From a bacterium (lineage in GTDB: Bacteria; SM23-31; JAUVVT01), in assembly GCA_030616165.1 (NCBI GenBank), contig JAUWXV010000151.1, positions 1 to 9,145 of the forward strand: a DNA stretch of 9,145 nucleotides, written 5' to 3'. Under the pieces are notes generated by a model that worked only from the letters and a program-made list of their open reading frames with translations, was not told where the DNA came from and searched no databases. Below, one piece after another: positions 2,317 through 3,704 of the stretch (its first letter is position 1; each line of letters opens with the position of its first letter). The translations under genes were made by a program, and so were the position numbers.

Positions 2317-2472
2317 TAATCTGCAAAACAATATCACAATACAATTTATGTAGGGGCACAGCGCGCTGTGCCCCCACCACAAAAACATGTAATAGCTCTA
2401 TTTCACGAAGAATGAATATTTTGTGGACATTTGGATAATGGACGTTTTAAGGGCGGTTCACGAACCGCCCTT
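2317..2472. repeat. 156-base direct repeat, left of the RAYT gene
   Basis: Pairs with 3104-3259 at a constant offset of 787 bases with no gap and about a dozen substitutions by eye. It contains two perfect palindromes: arms GGGGCACAGC (2353-2362) and GCTGTGCCCC (2365-2374), and arms GGGCGGTTC (2451-2459) and GAACCGCCC (2462-2470), joined by a linker of about 76 bases. Its first bases (TAATCTG) correspond to the last codons of the RAYT gene in the right copy. The left copy may therefore carry a trace of a transposase 3' end. Confidence 0.9.
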
Positions 2473-2531: not shown

Positions 2532-3113
2532 ATGAAATATAATCCAGAAAAACATCGTCGGCAGTCAATTAGGTTAAAAAATTTTAATTATTCACAATCC
2601 AGTGTCTATTTTGTTACTATTTGCACACATAGTCATGAATGTGTTTTTGGTGAAATAATGAATGGGGAAATGCATCTGAATGAGAATGGTCGTATTGTGG
2701 ATATTGAATGGGCGAAAACAAATGATAAACGAGATAATGTTGTATTGGATACATACGTAGTTATGCCGAATCATTTTCACGGAATTGTAATTTTGATTGA
2801 TACCTGTAAGGGCACAGCGCGCTGTGCCCCTGCCACAAAAACGTGTATTGGCCGTAATTATAGAAAATTTGGAAAAATGATTTCAGGGACATTACCAGCA
2901 ATAATTCGTTCATTCAAATCCGCCGTTACCAAACACATTAACGAGTTACGGAGTGAACAAGGTGTTCCTGTATGGCAGCGAAATTATTATGACCATATTA
3001 TCAGAAATGAAAAGGAATTAAATAAAATTCGAGAATATATCATCAACAATCCCCTAAAATGGGAATTGGATAAGGAAAATCCAAAAAATTGGGGGAAAAT
3101 TCATAATCTGTAA
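2532..3113 (+). CDS. REP-associated tyrosine transposase (IS200-like Y1 HUH)
   Basis: A 193-residue protein of the Y1_Tnp/RAYT family, full length for the group. The N-terminal RRQSIRLKNFNYSQSSVYFVTICTH stretch (9-33) is typical of the family. The HUH metal motif is H81-F82-H83 in VVMPNHFHGIV. The conserved PAIIRSFKSAVTKHINELR helix spans 122-140. The catalytic tyrosine is Y152 or Y153 in VWQRNYYDHIIRNE, and the C-terminal IINNPLKW lies at 170-177. RAYTs nick single-stranded REP DNA and are thought to spread REP/REPIN repeats; they are usually single-copy and domesticated. A weak GGA (about seven bases upstream) precedes the ATG. Two oddities stand out. A REP copy is translated in frame as residues 92-106 (CKGTARCAPATKTC). 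The stop codon directly abuts the start of the right-hand direct repeat. All catalytic motifs are intact, so it is probably active. The family call is firm. Confidence 0.93.
   Translation: MKYNPEKHRRQSIRLKNFNYSQSSVYFVTICTHSHECVFGEIMNGEMHLNENGRIVDIEWAKTNDKRDNVVLDTYVVMPNHFHGIVILIDTCKGTARCAPATKTCIGRNYRKFGKMISGTLPAIIRSFKSAVTKHINELRSEQGVPVWQRNYYDHIIRNEKELNKIREYIINNPLKWELDKENPKNWGKIHNL
2805..2848. repeat. REP copy inside the RAYT coding sequence
   Basis: These 44 bases match 3136-3179 (and 2349-2392 on the left) with about three substitutions. They include a perfect palindrome, arms GGGCACAGC (2810-2818) and GCTGTGCCC (2821-2829), and the tail CCACAAAAAC. The segment is read without a stop as residues 92-106 of the transposase, between the HUH strand and the following helix, where this family is known to vary in length. 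Confidence 0.9.
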
Positions 3114-3259
3114 ACCAATATTAAAACACAATCTATGTAGGGGCACAGCGCGCTGTGCCCCTACCACAAAAACATGTAATAGCTCTATTTCACGAAGAAT
3201 GAATATTTTGTGGACATTTGGGTAATTTACGTTGTAGGGGCGGTTCACGAACCGCCCTT
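3104..3259. repeat. 156-base direct repeat, right of the RAYT gene
   Basis: Right partner of 2317-2472. It contains palindromes at 3140-3161 (arms GGGGCACAGC, GCTGTGCCCC) and 3238-3257 (arms GGGCGGTTC, GAACCGCCC). Its first ten bases are the end of the RAYT coding sequence including the stop codon (3111-3113). Both palindromes are perfect in both copies, although the linker and flanks have changed, so the hairpins look maintained. Confidence 0.9.
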
Positions 3260-3704
3260 CCTCATTCCAAACAAACTTCCTGAAAAACCAAAAATTATTA
3301 TGATTAATAAAACAATTCTTGTTATTACGAATATATTTTATTATATTTAATATATGTTATTTTATATAATAACTCGTAATGATGGTTTTATTATGATTAT
3401 TTCAAAAAATATTTTCAACATAAATAATTTAGGAATATGTAAATACTTATATTTAAAATCTTTACAATCATTAAGAAATTTTACTATAAAAAATTTATTG
3501 TATTTTTCCAGCAAAAATAATGTAACTCTAAAAAAAATAATACCTCTAAAGATTAAAAAATGGTCAAAAATTATCATTTTTATCATTTTTTATCACAAAA
3601 TGACAAAATTTTATCACGAAATGAAAAAATTTTATCACGAAATGAGAGAAAATTCTCACAAAATAAACTGATTTTATAATAAAAAACTGAATTTATCTTA
3701 TCGT
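3260..3704. other. Very AT-rich intergenic stretch
   Basis: No gene is supported here. A 105-codon + strand frame (3354-3671) and an overlapping - strand frame (3362-3586) are open. Neither has a ribosome binding site, and their products are low-complexity I/K/N/F strings, as expected by chance in DNA this AT-rich. The only structured element is the 21-base tandem repeat at 3591-3674. The stretch separates the convergent RAYT and galK genes. No GC-rich terminator hairpin is visible. Confidence 0.6.
3591..3674. repeat. Tandem repeat, 21-base period, four units
   Basis: Units begin with TATCAC at 3591, 3612 and 3633; a degenerate fourth unit begins TCTCAC at 3654. The core is TATCACRAAATGA-N3-A. 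Shorter ATCATTTTT phrases directly upstream (3573-3590) look like older remnants. A 21-base period equals about two helical turns, which would put the units on one face of DNA. It is also seven codons: in the open + frame it reads KFYHEMK-type heptads. Confidence 0.8.

Follow-up and report, generated by a model that had tools for sequence, protein, structure and literature searches.

The window, which is the whole 9,145-nt stretch of DNA analyzed here, contains a RAYT (TnpAREP) gene that carries, translated in frame in a variable loop, a copy of the REP hairpin that flanks the gene. What is the role of a REP inside the gene of the transposase that presumably mobilizes it? The most likely reading, to which we give about an even chance, is that the internal REP represents the cognate site of the enzyme and is retained in linkage with the helix that would read it; this reading is favored over a tolerated scar and, in turn, over self-targeting control. 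At the level of sequence, the feature itself, its recurrence, its conservation as DNA and the cognate nature of the internal stem can be regarded as settled, and it is well supported that the N-terminal part of helix aC tracks the stem. We infer that aC reads the stem and that the enzyme binds the internal copy.

The window RAYT and its internal REP

The window gene (positions 2532–3113, forward strand; 193 residues) fits TnpAREP subclass 2.4, which Quentin et al. (2018; PMC6006769) equate in their main text with RAYT group 4 of Bertels et al., and on this basis adds a member to a kind already in the literature. Its product matches the REP_Tyr_transpos profile NF047646 (E 8e-21; 74.5 bits, slightly below the cut-off of 80) and, weakly, PF01797 (Y1_Tnp), and the closest structure to its AlphaFold model is 4er8, the E. 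coli TnpAREP–REP complex (Z 12.9). For subclass 2.4, Table 1 of PMC6006769 gives the motifs NH[IFV]H (HUH), WQ (W motif) and YIxNNP (Tyr), and the main text describes a median length of 194 residues, a variable insertion between beta3 and aC, flanking REPs with GT[AG]G and C[TC]AC feet, and, as typical or predominant, REPs inserted without frame disruption, generally between HUH and Tyr. The window RAYT shares the key motifs (NHFH at residues 80–83, positions 2769–2780, forward strand; WQ at 148–149; YIINNP at 169–174), the length, the variable beta3–aC insertion, the flanking double-foot REPs and the in-frame REP between HUH and Tyr. N80, H81 and H83 are invariant across the homologue alignment, as is the column of the presumed catalytic Tyr169 (3036–3038, forward strand), where E. 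coli Y115 is aligned. In the model, beta3 spans residues 81–88, disorder extends over 93–110 with a loop pLDDT below 50, and aC spans 121–140. The same genome yields 24 RAYT matches, the best paralogue being 58% identical to the window RAYT; neither transposition as a unit nor near-identical genomic copies, the marks of IS200/IS605 elements, were seen in this 343-contig assembly, in which copies may be collapsed.

The internal REP (2805–2848, forward strand) encodes residues 92–105 and part of 106 as the stop-free peptide CKGTARCAPATKTC. It is identical to positions 3136–3179 at 40 of 44 positions (the differences are three changes and the last base) and matches positions 2349–2392 similarly well. 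Its perfect 20-nt palindrome, GGGCACAGCGCGCTGTGCCC (2810–2829), is identical in the internal copy and both flanking copies. Furthermore, the match extends about 16 nt beyond the palindrome into a non-palindromic tail (CCACAAAAAC.TGTA), and therefore the internal element is a real REP copy and no chance palindrome. Chance is also ruled out by the genome-wide counts, the placement of hairpins in homologues and synonymous resampling. The sequence-only reading had proposed that a REP with an intact stem is translated without a stop in the variable loop that follows the HUH strand of a transposase flanked by the same REP, and each part of this description holds. It missed that the GTAG foot is gone on both sides of the internal copy (GTAA for GTAG and CTGC for CTAC), with the feet kept in the flanking copies. 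With the S. maltophilia TnpAREP, foot mutations are tolerated for binding and not for cleavage (PMC8266576). Judged by such requirements measured for other TnpAREPs, the window's internal copy is probably not cleavable and may still be bound but hardly cleaved. Because both feet are lost and GTAG is needed for cleavage in other TnpAREPs, the window gene may be an aging member of its kind.

The gene is framed by two 161-nt direct repeats (2317–2477 and 3104–3264; 91% identical), each of which combines a GCACAGCGCGCTGTGC-stem REP with a palindrome of a second type. The upstream REP (2349–2377) has the feet GTAG and CCAC, the downstream REP (3136–3164) has the double foot GTAG and CTAC, and both have the stem of the internal copy. 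The second palindrome, GGGCGGTTCACGAACCGCCC, lies at 2451–2470 and 3238–3257, and a REP of another stem (GCGAACGGCCGTTCGT; 2224–2245) is of the type present inside and beside a paralogue on contig C268. Pattern searches of the 3.74-Mb assembly place the window 20-mer, within 3 mismatches, at six sites (reversed control, 0): three in RAYT loops, namely in the window gene and in truncated relics on contigs C268 and C38, two flanking the window gene and one diverged. The tail CCACAAAAAC also follows the palindrome in both relics. With five of its six sites at RAYT genes or relics, this stem type is not a multi-copy, mostly extragenic REP, and on the same counts we reject an invasion of the gene by a high-copy REP family.

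The relics on C268 (L013/L024) and C38 (L025) end at or shortly after the loop REP. On C268, sequence from upstream of the following RAYT abuts the relic directly at the REP, the kind of junction that REP–REP recombination would leave. A 41-nt lead-in (window 2317–2357; also L137 and L138, on contigs C211 and C42 of the same genome) precedes different hairpins, GCACAGCGCGCTGTGC in the window and GCGACTCACTGTGGTCGC on C211 and C42, as if the hairpin had been exchanged behind a fixed lead-in. Elsewhere in the window, a GIY-YIG ORF (173–460; PF01541, 2.6e-17) lies between 31-nt inverted repeats (123–153 and 459–489), each itself a small palindrome (TGTCATTCCTGCGAAAGCAGGAAT / ATTCCCGCCTGCGCGGGAATGACA), in a mobile-unit-like arrangement, and three 21-nt tandem repeats (TTTTATCACGAAATGAAAAAA; 3588–3671) lie near the end of a 105-residue ORF without a family match.

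Recurrence of the loop hairpin and conservation of its DNA

In-frame loop hairpins recur among homologues, as a comparison of the kind suggested by the sequence-only reading demonstrates. Eighty named-genome loci together with anonymous relatives provided 95 RAYT ORFs, and a hairpin was counted when it scored at least 8 in the loop between the HUH and W motifs. Such a hairpin is found in 85 of the 95 homologues and in 48 of 54 held-out homologues, and named hosts with a loop hairpin span 17 phyla. The best hairpin of the gene falls in this loop in 81 of 95 cases, although the loop makes up 31% of the length. At least one intact foot is retained in 121 of 131 internal copies; both feet are lost in the other 10, the window's included. 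About a tenth of the homologues have no internal REP and otherwise look intact. The E. coli rayT gene yielded no such loop hairpin, and the plasmid and phage collections searched yielded distant RAYTs only. Thus, the proposal that a REP landed in its own gene and was kept stands as regards a REP in its own transposase, but not as a one-off event, given that the feature is recurrent and published and that some genomes hold no other copy.

Is it the DNA or the encoded peptide that is conserved? The conserved entity is the DNA palindrome, and the peptide is a by-product of whichever stop-free frame was taken. The GTAG foot lies at codon offset 1 in 34 genes and at offset 0 in 29, and never at the offset that would read TAG. 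One palindrome is translated as GRGTARRAPT or, with one base changed, as VGARRAVPL, and another as RGVLQYAPT or VGAYCDTPL. When the loop is resampled with synonymous codons, the observed hairpin is never reached in 59 of 85 genes. Silent sites were compared in 35 disjoint gene pairs, which were chosen solely by shared loop peptide because choice by palindrome similarity is biased. Four-fold sites differ at 30 of 293 positions (10%) under the shared loop peptide versus 746 of 1180 (63%) in the rest of the gene, and these 30 silent differences compare with 180 expected and with a lowest value of 147 in 20,000 simulations. In addition, compensatory changes in both arms are seen in the close pairs L042/L043 and L066/L071. 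Two-frame use and conserved silent sites rule out peptide conservation as the cause; the silent-site pattern could also have arisen if REPs inserted repeatedly or if flanking REPs converted the internal copy. The suggestion in the sequence-only reading that a new loop alters DNA recognition is unlikely, because the peptide depends on the frame and the loop is predicted to be disordered.

Other translated repeats were also encountered. In L231, L097 and L068, the RAYT loops contain short translated repeats arranged in long tandem runs (IGQAQ..., KPTHS... and VGAP...) that were apparently expanded from REP pieces. In a different type of Y1 transposase (DHIHG; L017 and L018, on contigs C302 and C283 of the same genome), a palindrome (GGGCGGGTAAACCCGCCC, translated in frame as GRVNPP) lies between the W motif and aC, which is not the subclass 2.4 site. 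Two non-RAYT ORFs near a RAYT (L039, 95–2891 and 3545–5012) hold two in-frame REPs each (GGGGCAATTCATGAATTGCCCC and others).

The main text of Quentin et al. (PMC6006769) does not contain the silent-site conservation, the two-frame use, the stem–aC match or the single-copy genomes found here. In-frame REPs in RAYT group 4 are already published there, and, so far as we found, three points are unreported: the DNA and not the peptide is conserved, the internal stem matches the flanking REPs, and aC predicts the stem.

Cognate stems and helix aC

The internal stem is generally that of the REPs beside the gene. It matches a stem at most 500 bp outside the gene in 34 of 52 cases (shuffled mean 3.5, maximum 9), and in a wider version of the comparison, extending up to 3 kb with at most 2 mismatches, 33 of 85 internal stems are matched versus 28 of 680 for other loci. 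Across 79 genes, stem identity tracks the segment directly after the loop (SLgaIirsFKSavTK) and hardly the remainder of the protein. Gene pairs with an aC identity of at least 0.67 have the same stem in 196 of 287 cases, versus 3 of 1025 pairs below 0.4, and the partial correlation between stem and aC (r 0.48) is equaled in none of 1000 permutations. The relationship is also present in 47 held-out genes that were fetched once the aC hypothesis had been formed (partial r 0.34; 0 of 1000 permutations as high), where aC-alike pairs share the stem in 13 of 23 cases and unlike pairs in 1 of 624. Prediction of the stem from the nearest gene succeeds for 13.1 of 47 genes when nearness is judged by aC and for 2 of 47 when it is judged by the rest of the protein. 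A weaker separate stem signal is located near residues 55–69 or so, toward the end of the preceding helix (0.16 and 0.19 in the two sets).

Linkage is a real confounder of this correlation, because the aC segment lies within about 90 nt of the internal REP; the HUH strand on the other side of the REP is so highly conserved that it offers little variation to correlate. Linkage alone appears to be opposed by two sequence comparisons. Flanking stems by themselves also follow aC (51 of 117 versus 13 of 729), and genes without an internal REP have a flanking REP of the aC-predicted type, most clearly L046 (helix GKPVSGSIPSIIRSFKSA, flanking REP GCACGGCGCGCCGTGC) and, as judged by eye, L091, L105, L129 and L005.

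The position of the stem-predicting segment is consistent with a direct role in recognition. In E. coli TnpAREP, alpha3 is the DNA-binding helix, and K82 in alpha3 contacts the REP (Corneloup et al. 2021; PMC8266576). Alignment equates the segment, the N-terminal part of aC (codons 119–134 in the window gene, 2886–2933, forward strand), with alpha3, and K82 aligns at S130 of the window RAYT. By analogy with 4er8 and PMC8266576, aC would face the REP. The E. coli protein (RayT; subclass 2.2) has the fold and flanking REPs in common with the window RAYT, but its gene has no internal REP, its REPs are bulged and its beta3–aC connection is short.

The C268 paralogue has a different palindrome, GCGAACGGCCGTTCGC, at the same loop site and again just beyond the gene end. 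It shares with the window protein 55 of 86 N-terminal residues (64%) and 34 of 41 C-terminal residues (83%), but only 3 of 14 in the loop and 7 of 22 in aC. Further translated palindromes (VGADPRVCP, VGAPPCGRP and VGTEQCSVPT) occur in other paralogues of this genome. The window gene and the C268 paralogue differ in loop and aC while sharing both ends, each with its own stem repeated alongside, in agreement with a cassette. With somewhat less than even confidence, we propose a readable code for RAYT group 4: the N-terminal part of aC, and more weakly a stretch near the end of the preceding helix, would specify the stem, and the gene would keep a matching hairpin, selected as DNA, in a linked enzyme–substrate cassette swappable as one piece.

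Possible roles of the internal REP

In the mechanism that we favor, the in-frame REP would duplicate the hairpin that the transposase itself recognizes. It lies in a loop predicted to be disordered, immediately ahead of aC, which is probably the stem-reading helix. REP and adjoining helix would form a linked specificity cassette, which would keep the enzyme paired with its substrate through gene movement or recombination. The window copy, with its perfect stem and lost feet, would be a member that is at most still bound. Points against a cassette are the linkage of REP and aC, the possible origin of the silent-site pattern in re-insertion or gene conversion, the footless copies and the homologues without an internal REP.

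A tolerated scar, continually renewed, is the strongest competitor, although we consider it distinctly less probable than a retained cognate site. The loop before aC alone would accept extra residues, and a cis-acting transposase would often insert REPs there; the copies, refreshed by insertion or gene conversion, would be functionless, and the stem would match aC since the enzyme inserts its cognate REP. The main text of PMC6006769 likewise views the insertion as a peripheral extension with probably little impact. The low pLDDT of the loop, the multiple tandem insertions held by many loops, sister genes with different stems (e.g. L045/L053) and the loss of feet in some copies are in line with a scar, as is the occurrence of REPs in other genes (PMC3733652). 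Those intragenic REPs and the Rickettsia palindromic elements are likewise palindromic repeats translated in frame in host genes, but they lie at scattered sites in unrelated genes, whereas here the gene is that of the presumed mobilizing enzyme, the site is single and the stem is cognate. The density of palindromes also argues against a scar: per 100 kb of the surveyed loci, RAYT ORFs contain 111, the intergenic DNA nearby contains 30 and the remaining ORFs contain 3.6, and three of the 12 cases in this last group are unrecognized RAYTs. Moreover, the assemblies that host L029, L037, L059, L073 and L086 contain no match within 3 mismatches other than the internal palindrome itself, and hence no existing pool from which the copy is renewed. 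The complete 2.4-Mb Ignavibacteria genome that hosts L073 has only two exact double-foot palindromes, both in RAYT genes, one apparently truncated. Other hosts have dozens to hundreds (Nostoc calcicola, 232; Desulfacinum, 113). A perfect internal copy therefore does not depend on a large genomic pool; alternatively, the gene may have arrived recently by transfer in the single-copy hosts, which could rescue the scar.

Self-targeting control is improbable in our estimation. The transposase would limit its own amount by binding the REP that its gene or mRNA carries, or by nicking it on the single-stranded coding or template strand. The cognate type of the internal copy and the intact feet of most copies agree with such control, and the RNA of the window copy is predicted to form a stable hairpin (−22.7 kcal/mol, z −2.1). 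By analogy with the S. maltophilia enzyme, even a footless copy could be bound. Against it stand the genes without an internal REP. We know of no RNA binding by RAYTs.

An ancestral peptide loop with coincidental or amino-acid-driven REP-like DNA, the outcome that the sequence-only reading had considered fatal to its own proposal, is almost certainly wrong: GTARRAP-like peptides do recur in genes without a nearby REP, but identical DNA gives different peptides in two frames, silent sites are conserved, synonymous resampling mostly fails to reach the hairpin and the window match continues into the non-palindromic tail.

A cognate site retained beside its reading helix, our preferred reading, would bear on two open questions, namely how RAYTs recognize many different REPs and why RAYT genes persist. 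Provided that the in-gene stem is the cognate site and is read by aC, sequence alone would reveal many transposase–substrate pairs, and specificity would be swappable and testable with a short segment. For a transposase gene with its own target embedded as translated DNA, this would supply a concrete, testable function.
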